A stretch of DNA of 64,000 nt from Paludibacter sp. (GTDB lineage: Bacteria; Bacteroidota; Bacteroidia; Bacteroidales; Paludibacteraceae): contig JAQVAV010000004.1 of assembly GCA_028690665.1 (NCBI GenBank), forward strand, positions 124,001-188,000, read 5' to 3'. This document shows, one piece after another, positions 18,209-47,077 of the stretch (position 1 is its first letter; every line of letters starts with the position of its first letter). The notes below the pieces were generated by a model, which saw only the letters and a program-made list of their open reading frames with translations, had not been told where the DNA came from and made no database searches. Both the position numbers and the translations under genes were made by a program.

Positions 18209-18232
18209 TTATTTATTTCTAATTGTCTTTCG

Positions 18233-18627
18233 TGGAGCTGGAGGGAGTCGAACCCTCGTCCAAACAAGGAAACTATATGCTTTCTACATGCTTATCTTCG
18301 CCTTAATTTTCGTGTGCAGGCAAGACCGAAGCCACCAACCCGCGCCTTATCCTTTTTATTTTCATTCCAGCATCAAGGCTTGCCGGAACTATCCCCGATT
18401 TAGCTGCATCTCCTGATCATCGGCCTCGGAGCGACGGCCTTTGGGAAATGTCTCGTCCAGTCACCTTGTGTCCGGATTAAGCTCGATCTACTATGATTCG
18501 ATTAAGCAGCAAGAGCGTAATTAGTTTCGCCAGTTATAATTTTGAGAACCGTGATTTACGAGCCGTTTTCCCCCCGCTCGGCATGCTTACATATCCTTTC
18601 TACCTGCTGTCAAAACCAAACAGCCCC
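18233..18627 (-). ncRNA. ssrA: Transfer-messenger RNA (tmRNA)
   Basis: tmRNA rescues stalled ribosomes and tags the nascent peptide for degradation. The 5' end GGGGCTG pairs with the 3' CAGCTCC, and the T arm reads GGTTCGACTCCC. On the minus strand at 18541-18512 the tag frame reads GETNYALAA then stop, a Bacteroidota-type tag. The length of about 395 nt fits a one-piece molecule. CCA is not encoded. A possible -7 element, TATTTTTG, lies at 18651-18644, without a clear TTTG -33 partner. Confidence 0.96.
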
Positions 18628-41451: not shown

Positions 41452-41481
41452 TTTGTATATTATAAAATAATATTACTTTTG
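41452..41481 (+). promoter_or_regulatory. Promoter of the phe leader/pheA operon
   Basis: TTTG at 41452-41455, an 18-nt spacer, then TACTTTTG at 41474-41481 match the Bacteroidota sigma factor consensus. Transcription should start a few bases beyond 41481, giving a leader of roughly 200 nt before pheA. The same spacing and -7 sequence occur in front of the tRNA gene at 47003. Confidence 0.8.
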
Positions 41482-41503
41482 CAGCGCAATCGGAAATAAT
41501 TAT

Positions 41504-41554
41504 ATGAAACGATTTTTTACATACTTTTATTTTTACTTTTACTTTTGTCGGTAA
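41504..41554 (+). CDS. Phe/Tyr-rich leader peptide of the pheA operon
   Basis: A 16-residue reading frame, MKRFFTYFYFYFYFCR, contains six Phe and four Tyr codons, with eight of them alternating in one run. It begins about 20 nt after the predicted transcription start and ends directly against the antiterminator strand at 41555. Leader peptides packed with the end product's codons make ribosome stalling the sensor of charged tRNA. Its position before prephenate dehydratase identifies it as a phenylalanine (and perhaps tyrosine) attenuator peptide. The peptide itself need have no other role. Confidence 0.85.
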   Translation: MKRFFTYFYFYFYFCR

Positions 41555-41644
41555 GAGCAGGATAAAATTATGTAAATATGAAATGAATTAAATTTAGACC
41601 AACATATAAAATCCTGCTCGAACATTCGGGTAGGATTTTTTTTT
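41555..41644 (+). promoter_or_regulatory. Transcription attenuator: antiterminator strand and terminator hairpin before pheA
   Basis: Region 2 at 41555-41576 begins GAGCAGGAT. Region 3 at 41602-41621 contains ATCCTGCTC, its exact complement. Region 4 at 41626-41637 (TCGGGTAGGATT) pairs with 41610-41621 over 12 bp, including two G-T wobbles, with a 4-nt loop and nine T residues after it: a strong terminator. Region 1 lies inside the leader peptide at 41516-41530 and pairs with 41562-41576 at 14 of 15 positions. Thus 1:2 plus 3:4 means termination, and 2:3 means read-through when a ribosome stalls on Phe/Tyr codons. Elsewhere in 41192-41451 I see only A/T-rich DNA and the nfnA promoter. Confidence 0.85.
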
Positions 41645-41684
41645 GAGTTTTTTCAACGGTATTAGTTCTAAAAAAATTGAATAA

Positions 41685-42530
41685 ATGAAACAAGTAGCAA
41701 TTCAGGGTGGTTTGGGAGCCTATCACGGTATAGCGGCAGAAAGATATTTTGATGGAGAAAAGGTTGAAATTATACCTTGTGCCACATTTCGGGATATTTT
41801 CAAAACGATTGAAAAAGATCCGAACATAGTTGGTATTATGGCCATCGAAAATACAATTGCCGGGAGCCTGCTTCCCAATTATGATCTGCTGAAGGAATAT
41901 AAACTGCCTATTGCAGGTGAATATAAACTACGTATTTCGCACTGTTTGGCAGCACTTCCCGGACAAACGATCCATGACATTAAAGAAATTCAATCGCACC
42001 CGATAGCTTTGATGCAATGTAACGACTTCATTGACACTATTCCGGGAGTAAAAGTGGTTGAACATGAAGACACTGCGCTTGCCGCCCGCGACATTGCTGA
42101 AAAAGACATAGTCGGACAAGCAGCTATTTGCAGCGAAAGAGCCGCAGAAATTTATGGTTTGGATATTCTGGCCCGGTCAATAGAAACGAACAAACATAAT
42201 TTCACCCGCTTTCTGATTTTTGGCAACCCTTGGCTCATAAAGGAAATTCAGAAAAATGAAGCACCTAACAAATCATCAGTCGTTTTTACGCTTCCACATT
42301 CAGAAGGAAGTCTATCAAAGGTTCTCTCGGTATTTTCTTTCTACGATATTAATCTGACAAAAATACAATCATTGCCCATTATCGGACATGAATGGGAATA
42401 CCAATTTTATGTGGATTTCACATTCAACGATCTGGAACGATATAAACAAGCACTGGCGGCCATAAAGCCACTCATCAAGGAGTTAAAAACGCTGGGGGAA
42501 TACGCCGAAGGTACTACACCTAAAGAATAA
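41685..42530 (+). CDS. pheA: Prephenate dehydratase
   Basis: Converts prephenate to phenylpyruvate, the committed step to phenylalanine. The 281-aa protein has a periplasmic-binding-like catalytic region with KHNFTRFLIFG near residue 165 containing the conserved TRF, and a C-terminal ACT domain from about residue 192 for phenylalanine feedback (GSLSKVLSVFSFYDINLTKI). The position of the usual ESRP motif reads QSLP. No chorismate mutase is fused here; that activity is on the DAHP synthase three genes along. The gene is first in the operon behind the attenuator. Confidence 0.94.
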   Translation: MKQVAIQGGLGAYHGIAAERYFDGEKVEIIPCATFRDIFKTIEKDPNIVGIMAIENTIAGSLLPNYDLLKEYKLPIAGEYKLRISHCLAALPGQTIHDIKEIQSHPIALMQCNDFIDTIPGVKVVEHEDTALAARDIAEKDIVGQAAICSERAAEIYGLDILARSIETNKHNFTRFLIFGNPWLIKEIQKNEAPNKSSVVFTLPHSEGSLSKVLSVFSFYDINLTKIQSLPIIGHEWEYQFYVDFTFNDLERYKQALAAIKPLIKELKTLGEYAEGTTPKE

Positions 42531-42569: not shown

Positions 42570-43766
42570 ATGGAAAATCAAATGGAATCGGAACAAAAAG
42601 GATTCTCAATTCAGCCGGCCGACAGACTTAAATCTGTTTCGGAATATTATTTTTCTATTAAACTAAAAGAAGTAGCCGATATGAATGCCCGTGGACTGAA
42701 TGTTATCAGTCTGGGCGTAGGAAGTCCGGATATGCCCCCATCGGAAGCTACCATCGAAGCGCTCGCCAGATCGGCTGCAGAGCCCAACGCTCATGGTTAT
42801 CAGCCTTATATCGGTATTCCGGAATTGCGCGAGGCTTTTGCTAATTGGTATCAGAAATGGTTTGGCGTAACGCTAAATCCAGTCAATGAAATCCAACCTC
42901 TTATCGGTTCCAAAGAAGGAATTCTGCATATTTCAATGGCATTTCTGAATCCCGGAGACGGAGTTCTTGTTCCTAATCCCGGTTATCCGACCTATTCGTC
43001 AGTCAGTAATTTGGTACAGGCCCATGTTATCAGTTATGATTTGGACGAAAACAACGGTTGGCAACCTGATTTTGAAGCGCTCGAGAAAATGGATCTGAGC
43101 CATGTAAAACTCATGTGGGTTAATTATCCGAACATGCCCACGGGAGCGAGCGCAACTGTTGAACTTTTCGAAAAATTAGTAGCTTTCGGAAAAAAACACA
43201 GCATTGTTATTTGTAACGACAATCCTTACAGCTTTATTCTGAACGAAAACCGTTTGAGTATTCTTCAGGTGGAAGGTGCCAAGGATATTTGTATAGAGCT
43301 GAACTCTATGAGTAAATCGCATAATATGCCGGGCTGGCGTATGGGGCTACTCGCTTCAAATGCTCAGTTTGTACAATGGGTACTGAAAGTAAAAAGTAAT
43401 GTCGACAGCGGACAATTCAAGCCGATGCAGGTTGCTGCGGTAGCTGCCCTTAACAACGATGAAGCATGGCATCATGCCATGAATATTGATTTATACCGCA
43501 GCCGCCGTAATCTGGCTGAAGAAATTATGAAAACACTGGGTTGCACATTCGATGAGAAACAGGTAGGTATGTTTCTGTGGGGAAAAATTCCGACACAGTA
43601 TAAAGACAGTGGCGAACTGGCCGACAAAGTGCTTTATGAGGCCAAAGTTTTTATTACTCCCGGATTTATTTTTGGAAATAAAGGCACTCGTTACATCCGT
43701 ATTTCGCTTTGCGCCAATGAAAAAACGCTGGGCGAAGCGTTGGAACGGACAAAGGCAATCGTTTAA
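42570..43766 (+). CDS. Class I/II pyridoxal-phosphate aminotransferase
   Basis: A 398-aa fold-type I aminotransferase with GSPDMPPSEAT near residue 51, the PNPGYPTYSSV segment near residue 138, and the PLP lysine in NSMSKSHNMPGWRMG around residue 250. Family labels for this type include aspartate and LL-diaminopimelate aminotransferases. Placed 39 bp after pheA, it most likely transaminates phenylpyruvate (or prephenate/hydroxyphenylpyruvate) to finish aromatic amino acid synthesis. The exact substrate cannot be read from the sequence. Confidence 0.85.
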   Translation: MENQMESEQKGFSIQPADRLKSVSEYYFSIKLKEVADMNARGLNVISLGVGSPDMPPSEATIEALARSAAEPNAHGYQPYIGIPELREAFANWYQKWFGVTLNPVNEIQPLIGSKEGILHISMAFLNPGDGVLVPNPGYPTYSSVSNLVQAHVISYDLDENNGWQPDFEALEKMDLSHVKLMWVNYPNMPTGASATVELFEKLVAFGKKHSIVICNDNPYSFILNENRLSILQVEGAKDICIELNSMSKSHNMPGWRMGLLASNAQFVQWVLKVKSNVDSGQFKPMQVAAVAALNNDEAWHHAMNIDLYRSRRNLAEEIMKTLGCTFDEKQVGMFLWGKIPTQYKDSGELADKVLYEAKVFITPGFIFGNKGTRYIRISLCANEKTLGEALERTKAIV

Positions 43767-43791: not shown

Positions 43792-43980
43792 CAACGGATG
43801 GCTCTATCAAATGAGCGGATCGTATAATAAGATACGCGGGTGACATAAATAAATGAGCGGATTGCATCATAAGATAAGCGGATCATTTAATTGAATGAAC
43901 GGATGATATAATTAAATACGCGGGTGATATAATTAAATGAGCGGATTGTATAATAAGACGCGCGGGTGACATAATGAAGC
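43792..43980 (+). repeat. Nine tandem degenerate 21-bp repeats
   Basis: The triplet CGG recurs at 43795, 43816, 43837, 43858, 43879, 43900, 43921, 43942 and 43963, exactly every 21 bp. Units look like GAGCGGAT-TGTATAATAAGA or ACGCGGGT-GACATAATTAAA, G/C-rich cores alternating with A/T-rich stretches. All reading frames carry stops, so it is not a coding repeat. The array fills most of the 294-bp gap between the aminotransferase and DAHP synthase genes, inside an operon. Confidence 0.85.
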
Positions 43981-44060: not shown

Positions 44061-45122
44061 ATGGAATTAGAATCTATTTTATTGCCCGGTGTGGATGCCA
44101 AACGTCCTTTATTAATTGCCGGTCCGTGCAGCGCGGAAACAGAAGAACAGGTAATGGAAACAGCCCGACAGTTGGCTGCCCGTGGCGTAAAAATATTCCG
44201 TGCCGGTGTATGGAAACCCAGAACAAAACCCGGAGGCTTTGAAGGAAACGGTGTAAAAGCGCTTCCATGGCTGAAACGTGTAAAAGAAGAGTTAGGCATG
44301 TACACTGCCGTTGAGGTGGCAACAGCCGCTCATGTTCGCGAAGCATTGGCTTACGATGTCGATATTTTATGGGTCGGAGCGCGCACGTCAGCCAATCCGT
44401 TTGCAGTACAAGAGGTTGCTGATGCCCTTGAAGGAATGGATATTCCGGTATTGATAAAAAACCCGGTAAATCCGGATCTGGATTTGTGGATCGGAGCCAT
44501 ACAGCGTATATACAATGCCGGCATCCGCAGAATCGGAGCTATCCACCGCGGCTTTAGCTCTTACGACAAAAAAATTTACCGGAACCTTCCTCAGTGGCAT
44601 ATTCCGATGGAACTAAAACGTCAGATTCCGAACCTGCCCATAATCTGCGACCCAAGCCATATCGGCGGAAAGCGTGAATTAATCAGCCCACTTTGTCAGC
44701 AGGCAATGGACCTGAACTTTGACGGACTGATTGTTGAAGCTCATTGCAATCCGGAAAAAGCGTGGAGCGACGCGGCACAGCAGGTAACCCCGGAAGTGCT
44801 CGACTTCATTATGAACACGTTGGTAATACGCGACACGAACCAAACGACCGAAAATTTATCGGCTTTACGTAGCCAGATTGACGAGCTTGACAACAGTTTA
44901 CTTGAACTCTTAGCACGTCGTATGCGCGTCTCTCGCGAAATAGGCCAGTATAAAAAGGAGCACGACATGCCAATTTTACAAACACAACGTTATGATGAAA
45001 TCATTCATAAACGTGTTGAACAGGCAAAACAAATGGGAATGGATGGTGAATTTATGAAAACGGTACTCATAGCTATTCATGAAGAATCTGTTCGTCATCA
45101 ACAGGAAATTATGAATCTATAG
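44061..45122 (+). CDS. Bifunctional DAHP synthase / chorismate mutase
   Basis: Residues 1-260 are a type I-beta (KDPS-like) 3-deoxy-7-phosphoheptulonate synthase: LLIAGPCSAETEEQ, FRAGVWKPRTKPGGFEG, LWVGARTSANPF and ICDPSHIGGKRE. Residues 270-353 are an AroQ chorismate mutase helix bundle (LRSQIDELDNSLLELLARRM, IGQYKKEHDM). The fusion couples the first step of the shikimate pathway to the branch toward prephenate, which pheA uses. No tyrA follows, unlike some Bacteroidota clusters; the next gene is on the opposite strand. Confidence 0.94.
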   Translation: MELESILLPGVDAKRPLLIAGPCSAETEEQVMETARQLAARGVKIFRAGVWKPRTKPGGFEGNGVKALPWLKRVKEELGMYTAVEVATAAHVREALAYDVDILWVGARTSANPFAVQEVADALEGMDIPVLIKNPVNPDLDLWIGAIQRIYNAGIRRIGAIHRGFSSYDKKIYRNLPQWHIPMELKRQIPNLPIICDPSHIGGKRELISPLCQQAMDLNFDGLIVEAHCNPEKAWSDAAQQVTPEVLDFIMNTLVIRDTNQTTENLSALRSQIDELDNSLLELLARRMRVSREIGQYKKEHDMPILQTQRYDEIIHKRVEQAKQMGMDGEFMKTVLIAIHEESVRHQQEIMNL

Positions 45123-47002: not shown

Positions 47003-47077
47003 GGGCCTATAGCTCAGTTGGTTAGTAGCACCTGACTCATAATCAGGGGGTCGCTGGTTCAAGCCCAGCTGGGCCCA
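47003..47077 (+). tRNA. tRNA with CAT anticodon, probably tRNA-Ile (lysidine type)
   Basis: Acceptor GGGCCTA pairs with TGGGCCC, with discriminator A. The anticodon arm is CCTGA-CTCATAA-TCAGG and the T arm GCTGG-TTCAAGC-CCAGC. The T arm and the GGTC variable region resemble E. coli tRNA-Ile2 more than elongator tRNA-Met, hence the assignment, but Met is not excluded. The D arm has an extra base and a mismatched 13-22 pair (TAGC opposite GCTC). CCA is not encoded. A promoter and a terminator flank it. Confidence 0.8.

Follow-up and report, generated by a model that had tools for sequence, protein, structure and literature searches.

A probable phenylalanine- and tyrosine-sensing transcription attenuator upstream of pheA in Paludibacter, with covarying leaders in Bacteroidales

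The region 5' of pheA in a Paludibacter genome of 4.05 Mb very probably carries a ribosome-mediated transcription attenuator that jointly senses charged tRNA-Phe and tRNA-Tyr and controls an operon of pheA, an aminotransferase gene, and a DAHPS/CM fusion gene. The leader lies within a stretch of 64,000 nucleotides (the window), which supplies the coordinates used below. Direct support exists for the anatomy of the leader, for its conservation, for covariation in all three helices, and for a tendency of leader codons to match the amino acid that the operon makes. Sequence comparison and modeled folding lend good support to classical ribosome-mediated attenuation as the mechanism, by which the pheA leader would probably turn the aromatic operon on only upon ribosome stalling for Phe or Tyr shortage.

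Anatomy of the pheA leader and its operon

The features of the locus are given here, with the basis of the assignment in brackets where it applies.

41452-41455, + strand: TTTG, -33-like promoter element of the Bacteroidota type (sequence)
41474-41481, + strand: TACTTTTG, -7-like promoter element of the form TAnnTTTG (sequence)
41504-41554, + strand: leader ORF encoding MKRFFTYFYFYFYFCR, from ATG to the TAA stop (sequence)
41516-41530, + strand: region 1, which overlaps leader codons and pairs with 41562-41576 (fold, complementarity)
41555-41563, + strand: region 2, GAGCAGGAT, the antiterminator 5' arm directly 3' of the stop codon (complementarity)
41562-41576, + strand: partner of region 1, overlapping the end of region 2 (fold, complementarity)
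41608-41621, + strand: region 3, the terminator 5' arm, of which 41611-41619 pairs with region 2
41626-41639, + strand: region 4, the terminator 3' arm
41636-41644, + strand: U tract of nine T (sequence)
41685-42530, + strand: pheA, prephenate dehydratase (PF00800, 187.4 bits)
42570-43766, + strand: class I/II aminotransferase of the operon (PF00155)
44061-45122, + strand: DAHP synthase/chorismate mutase fusion (DAHPS/CM; PF00793 and PF01817, both over cut-off)

The leader ORF contained 16 codons, six for Phe and four for Tyr, in agreement with the original prediction, and its TAA ended at 41554 with region 2 starting at 41555, which is the abutment of stop codon and region 2 that had been described. 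Counting anew, we obtained the predicted 14 of 15 pairing positions between region 1 and 41562-41576, and the perfect complementarity claimed for region 2 was recovered as 9 of 9 positions against 41611-41619, within the terminator 5' arm. The predicted terminator was found as a hairpin at 41608-41639 of 14 pairs, five of them G-C, with nine T at 41636-41644. Folding of the 164 nt at 41487-41650, a check proposed along with the prediction, yielded -40.9 kcal/mol compared to a mean of -22.3 for shuffled sequences (z = -5.23), and 0 of 200 shuffles folded as well. At gathering score no Rfam family was assigned to the pheA leader, and at E values up to 10 no plausible family emerged for it, the sub-threshold matches having E values of at least 0.14. 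Elsewhere in the window, Rfam reported a tmRNA at 18230-18627 (- strand) and a tRNA gene at 47003-47077.

A consensus promoter had also been predicted. Upstream of the leader we found a Bacteroidota-like form, in which 18 nt separate TTTG from TACTTTTG; the consensus behind this assignment is one that we take to hold for Bacteroidota promoters. A sigma-70 scan returned zero sites 5' of the pheA leader. A TAnnTTTG box with TTG 16 to 26 nt ahead was located 5' of the leader in 113 of 167 cases, compared to 0.85 in base-shuffled segments.

Among the matches listed for PheA, the nearest named records were metagenome-assembled genomes labeled Paludibacter, at 80 to 83% identity, along with others bearing different or merely higher-level labels. 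The pheA product scored 201.4 bits against NCBIfam PRK11898.1, under the cut-off of 219, and the NCBIfam matches of the aminotransferase (among the 25 listed) all lay under their cut-offs. Between the aminotransferase and DAHPS/CM genes, at 43809-43975, is a 21-nt tandem repeat of approximately eight copies with the unit AAATGAGCGGATGATATAATA, an array that also can be read as four 42-nt units; a genome-wide pattern search allowing up to one mismatch gave three matches, all inside it.

Two further leaders of related design were seen in this genome. The single match to Bacteroid-trp (RF01692), near a contig end (L230, G000:C8:179582-179711), comprised a Trp-codon leader ORF, MTINKFWWWRLRNNRS, and a terminator, and 5' of leuA (L232, G000:C8) the ORF MNNNFLHIILLGIIILLQNKTK was followed by a terminator, making this a candidate Leu/Ile attenuator. 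Together with the pheA leader, these place the design, as it seems, in at least three pathways of the genome. Inspection by eye and an ORF scan revealed no his attenuator 5' of hisG.

Conservation of the leader and covariation of its helices

Relatives of PheA were collected from three sources: named contigs (best 80 loci), the genus (matches in 45 of 48 genomes, 30 loci), and a class-wide draw (matches in 122 of 396 genomes, 118 upstreams fetched). After removal of duplicates and short sequences, 204 upstreams of at most 500 nt were scored, 88 in a Bacteroidales set that includes the window's own and 116 in a class-wide set. An ATG-initiated ORF with at least 7 Phe/Tyr per 10 residues was present in 160 of the 204 (86 of 88 and 74 of 116, respectively), compared to 0.25% of trials with dinucleotide-shuffled upstreams and 0 of 204 reverse strands. 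When GTG starts were admitted and the threshold was set at 6 Phe/Tyr per 10, the leader frame, whose conservation the original prediction had asked about, was retained in all 88 upstreams of the Bacteroidales set and in 86 of the 116 class-wide ones, with a null rate of 2.2%. Three leaders (L038, L043, and L201) begin with GTG and so were absent from the ATG-only count. Those of family f23 (TYFWFYP) and L163 fell under the threshold, yet leader and terminator were legible by eye. Records named Bacteroides fragilis, B. xylanisolvens, Parabacteroides, and Dysgonomonas possessed the leader.

Its distribution was uneven at family level. The threshold (ATG or GTG) was reached in 0 of 4 upstreams of family f71, 0 of 2 of f28, 0 of 2 of f68, and 0 of 8 of f19 (L133-L137, L145, L148, and L150), whereas f22 had the leader in 4 of 9 pheA upstreams; in f19, this mode of regulation may have disappeared or given way to another. 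Outside Bacteroidia, a Phe/Tyr leader was found in 4 of 20 hand-picked upstreams. At some Bacteroides loci (e.g., L075, L076, and L080) the leader ORF continues through region 2 and ends in KVEREFVCIK, so a ribosome there would traverse region 2, with no stop codon before it.

A script detected the terminator in 167 of 171 leaders, and the four that it passed over (L033, L044, L196, and L200) have a hairpin whose T run is short or interrupted. For the antiterminator, the best duplex of the spacer with the terminator 5' arm was compared with those of base-shuffled spacers; it was better (p ≤ 0.05) in 83 of the 84 leaders of the Bacteroidales set and in 63 of the 83 class-wide ones.

Covarying pairs in relatives, another proposed check, were assessed in an alignment (A1) of 94 Bacteroidales leaders, 92 of them distinct, in which related rows are not independent. 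Compensatory changes were observed in all three helices. In the 2:3 helix, 87.7% of cells were paired (80.2 after shuffling) with 90 double-change cells (35.6 after shuffling). The corresponding values for the 1:2 core were 86.6% (82.0) and 46 (14.7), and for the 3:4 helix 96.5% (87.6) and 107 (32.1), the 3:4 counts being favored because the A1 leaders were picked for having a terminator. The covariation score, the percentage paired, and the number of double-change cells were each matched by 0 of 500 shuffles for every helix, and control helices slid along the alignment gave far lower values. Two other measures separated less well from the shuffles. At least as many pairs with a double change (five in 2:3) arose in 217, 3, and 12 of 500 shuffles for 2:3, 3:4, and 1:2, respectively, and at least as many further pair types in 480, 381, and 69. 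The 1:2 helix was retained as a nine-pair core formed by TTTACATAC and a partner 3' of region 2.

The changes extended over three regions at once: CAGGA/TCCTG/CAGGA in regions 2, 3, and 4 became CGGGA/TCCCG/CGGGA in relatives, and L065 has CGAGA/TCTCG in place of CAGGA/TCCTG, while L011 has one region 2 pair broken. Such joint change is what attenuation demands of the two partners of region 3.

Codon content, operon content, and tandem leaders

At least two Phe and at least two Tyr codons were present in 166 of 167 leaders, and Trp codons in 29 of 167. Of the 60 loci with sufficient sequence, 41 had the order pheA-aminotransferase-DAHPS/CM-tyrA. In 17 of the 60, Paludibacter included, tblastn over approximately 6.8 kb from the pheA start revealed no tyrA; that of the present genome lies at a separate locus (L229), before which no leader was seen. 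Since tyrA is elsewhere and lacks a visible leader, Tyr sensing in this genome would act on the shared steps, those of DAHPS/CM and the aminotransferase.

A covariance model (R1) brought to light operons in which pheA and tyrA are apart. In the source genome it gave one strong site, at pheA (106 bits); the other 25 matches, of at most 39.5 bits, were taken as background. Across the order, strict filters left a match in 47 of 148 genomes, and eight regions in five genomes were inspected as sequence, one of which (L275) was judged spurious. Genome G780 has a lone pheA with the leader MTRFFTHFFFFFTQQ (seven Phe, zero Tyr) and a separate tyrA-DAHPS-aroB-ORF-aroA operon with the leader MNNTFGYYAFYYYFFYNN; its TyrA scored 343.8 bits against NF006307 (cut-off of 295), and aroB and aroA likewise exceeded their cut-offs. 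The lone pheA of G788 (L306) has the leader MRRNSFRFFFFFAFFFCNGRNGVSYLY, with nine Phe and two Tyr at the very end, an assignment based on a 49-bit covariance-model match and on reading the sequence, the T run being interrupted and the script having found no leader plus terminator. The aminotransferase-DAHPS-tyrA operon of the same genome is preceded by MIKNISVFAYFYYYFYFSKK, and the aminotransferase-tyrA-DAHPS operon of G799 is preceded by two leaders, both containing Tyr and lacking Phe.

Leaders of tyrA operons (12 leaders from 10 genomes, the absence of pheA being assessed within the 3 to 9 kb fetched) had a median Y/(F+Y) of 0.60, compared to 0.40 for 146 distinct pheA leaders, for which operon content is known at the named loci only (73 leaders, median also 0.40). 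The difference yielded a one-sided Mann-Whitney p of 2e-5, or 3e-4 with the 10 genome means; without G797, whose operon runs off the contig end, the values were 5e-6 and 6e-5. A Y fraction of at least 0.55 was found in 10 of the 12 leaders of tyrA operons with no pheA in view and in 13 of the 146 leaders 5' of pheA. The exceptions among the tyrA operons were Phe-rich, namely G827 (six F to three Y) and G797 (Y fraction of 0.375). For lone pheA the evidence comes from two genomes, just one of which lies outside the range of the 146. By these sequence comparisons, the codons of a leader tend to reflect what its operon makes, with exceptions. The earlier suggestion of joint Phe and Tyr sensing gains support from the near-universal codon pair, from the tyrA gene in most of the 60 operons, and from the codon bias of the split operons, its exceptions noted.

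Nine of the 204 upstreams (L065, L067, L131, L151, L153, L155, L212, L218, and L228) contained two serial leader-plus-terminator units 5' of pheA in a scan, and a tenth candidate, L060, was rejected as chance. In the eight that were assessed for antiterminators (all but L067), both units had p ≤ 0.05 in L065, L131, and L218, and one unit did in the other five. Adjacent double model matches were found in two further genomes (L268 and L269), and double leaders precede two tyrA operons (L312 and L314).

Proposed mechanism, alternatives, and relation to known leaders

In the mechanism that we propose, the transcript would start approximately 15 nt 5' of the leader ORF, as judged from the promoter, and a ribosome would trail the polymerase along the leader. 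With Phe and Tyr plentiful, it would arrive at the stop codon and cover region 2, such that regions 3 and 4 pair and transcription terminates at the U tract. With Phe or Tyr scarce, it would stall at one of the ten Phe/Tyr codons, leaving region 2 free. Region 2 would pair with region 3 ahead of the synthesis of region 4, and transcription would continue into pheA. Region 1 may sequester region 2 after the ribosome departs or when none has loaded. Translation of the leader, co-transcriptional kinetics, coupling of the ribosome, and termination and read-through in the cell are steps that we infer.

We modeled ribosome positions by folding the RNA left free beyond the ribosome, the 3' edge of which was assumed to lie 12 nt past the first A-site base. 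For RNA ending at 41624, nine of the ten Phe/Tyr codons, when placed in the A site, gave the 2:3 helix a probability of 0.98 to 0.99. The last Phe codon gave 0.85 and the Cys codon 0.53, and with Arg or the stop codon in the A site the value fell to 0.00. By these values, all ten sensing codons sit where a stall frees region 2. The antiterminator excludes the terminator, and a ribosome that has reached the stop codon would cover the antiterminator 5' arm. For full-length RNA, the 3:4 helix had a probability of 0.91 to 1.0 at every ribosome position. Since the terminator wins thermodynamically at full length, read-through would have to be kinetic, as in the classical trp model. Without a ribosome and before region 4, the equilibrium probabilities were 0.96 for 2:3 and 0.02 for 1:2, which makes default termination of the untranslated leader uncertain. 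Region 1 has a less certain role: its pairing is conserved, yet 2:3 is preferred over 1:2 before region 4. The earlier description of the 1:2 helix calls for correction: what is conserved, and covaries, is its nine-pair core, and at equilibrium 1:2 did not rise above 2:3 prior to region 4.

The same observations bear on three other explanations. It is unlikely, although not negligibly so, that the leader senses Phe alone and that its Tyr codons are owed to the fit of UAY in pairing or to the similarity of Phe and Tyr. On that account one would point to the window's genus, where tyrA was not found in the operon, to the TTTTTACTTTTAC nucleotide string, which is strongly conserved in Bacteroidales and partly paired in a small hairpin drawn by RNAalifold, and to the 2 of 12 tyrA-operon leaders that are Phe-rich. 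The two or more Tyr codons in 166 of 167 leaders argue against it, for they include families with other pairing sequences; so do the 10 Tyr-rich leaders of tyrA operons, two of them devoid of Phe, and the lone pheA whose leader has no Tyr codon.

We consider it very improbable that the element is a ligand-binding riboswitch or a protein-dependent terminator (e.g., one governed by an RNA-binding regulator) with an incidental ORF. The element is a structured 5' leader with a terminator, and sensors of these kinds serve many leaders, but the aromatic ORF is widely kept, its codons tend to shift with the downstream gene, the conserved parts consist of the ORF and simple, partly exclusive helices, and the Rfam searches described above offered no family. 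A plain intrinsic terminator 5' of pheA with a chance AT-rich ORF is scarcely credible. Phe and Tyr codons do arise readily in AT-rich intergenic DNA; nevertheless, shuffled sequences matched the richness of the leader (7 per 10) in just 0.1 to 0.3%, the reverse strands never did, and the 2:3 helix covaries, which a terminator does not need. Barring an alignment artifact, the comparative data contradict this explanation. Joint Phe/Tyr attenuation remains the preferred reading.

Attenuation of amino acid operons is a textbook mechanism, known from proteobacteria. The E. coli pheST leader, like the pheA leader described here, has Phe and some Tyr codons, but it governs tRNA synthetase genes rather than a biosynthesis operon. 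The gamma-proteobacterial pheA leader (Rfam Phe_leader, RF01859) resembles the present system in that Phe codons of a leader peptide control pheA by way of alternative helices and an intrinsic terminator; its model of sequence and structure gave no significant match to our leader (17.1 bits, with a gathering score of 55). The Paludibacter leader differs from it in the alternation of Phe and Tyr codons, in a promoter of Bacteroidota appearance, and in an operon that also holds the aminotransferase and DAHPS/CM fusion genes. Bacteroid-trp (RF01692) is a Bacteroidota leader RNA, and the copy in this genome has an ORF and a terminator; its codons, however, are for Trp rather than Phe/Tyr, and it had no match at gathering score in the window at the pheA leader.

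The original prediction had added that its author was not aware of an attenuator of this design described for this operon in Bacteroidota, a statement that holds in narrower form. As far as the consulted text extends, a 2021 study of Flavobacterium psychrophilum (PMC9723704) reported strong clues for leader-peptide attenuation 5' of amino acid operons, and also a 5' element before pheA, conserved in Flavobacteriaceae and without Rfam hits. That element belongs to the same phylum and the same gene; in the parts consulted, the account gives neither a leader sequence nor codons or covariation, and the conservation that it names is within Flavobacteriaceae. These clues and the Bacteroid-trp family stand against the broad statement. 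In the open-licence literature covered, mainly as titles and the openings of abstracts, no Phe/Tyr pheA attenuator in Bacteroidales was found. Of the other sources, again as partly consulted, PMC7366714 mentions that some long 5' UTRs of B. thetaiotaomicron contain sORFs reminiscent of leader peptides, pheA being absent from its main text; Table 1 of PMC2864571 includes Bacteroid-trp; and the survey in PMC3766115 suggests that attenuation motifs may have arisen in gamma-proteobacteria with very few transfers. Within the open-licence literature so covered, the breadth, covariation, Phe/Tyr tuning, and tandem copies appear to be unreported.

Taken as a whole, we lean towards the view that these leaders form an ancient, widely retained family of aromatic attenuators in Bacteroidota, mainly in the class Bacteroidia, with codons re-tuned per operon: Phe and Tyr together before joint operons, Phe-dominated before a lone pheA, Tyr-rich or Tyr-only before tyrA, sometimes with Trp, and in tandem in several lineages. 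The existence in Bacteroidia of a covarying family that matches no Rfam entry speaks for attenuation having arisen more widely or more than once. With two attenuators in series, if truly such, control could become steeper or respond to two signals. Since the mix of codons tends to track what the operon contains, natural operon splits would provide ready-made specificity variants, and the presence of the leader in gut species (the B. fragilis and B. xylanisolvens records) would make the mechanism testable where genetic tools exist.
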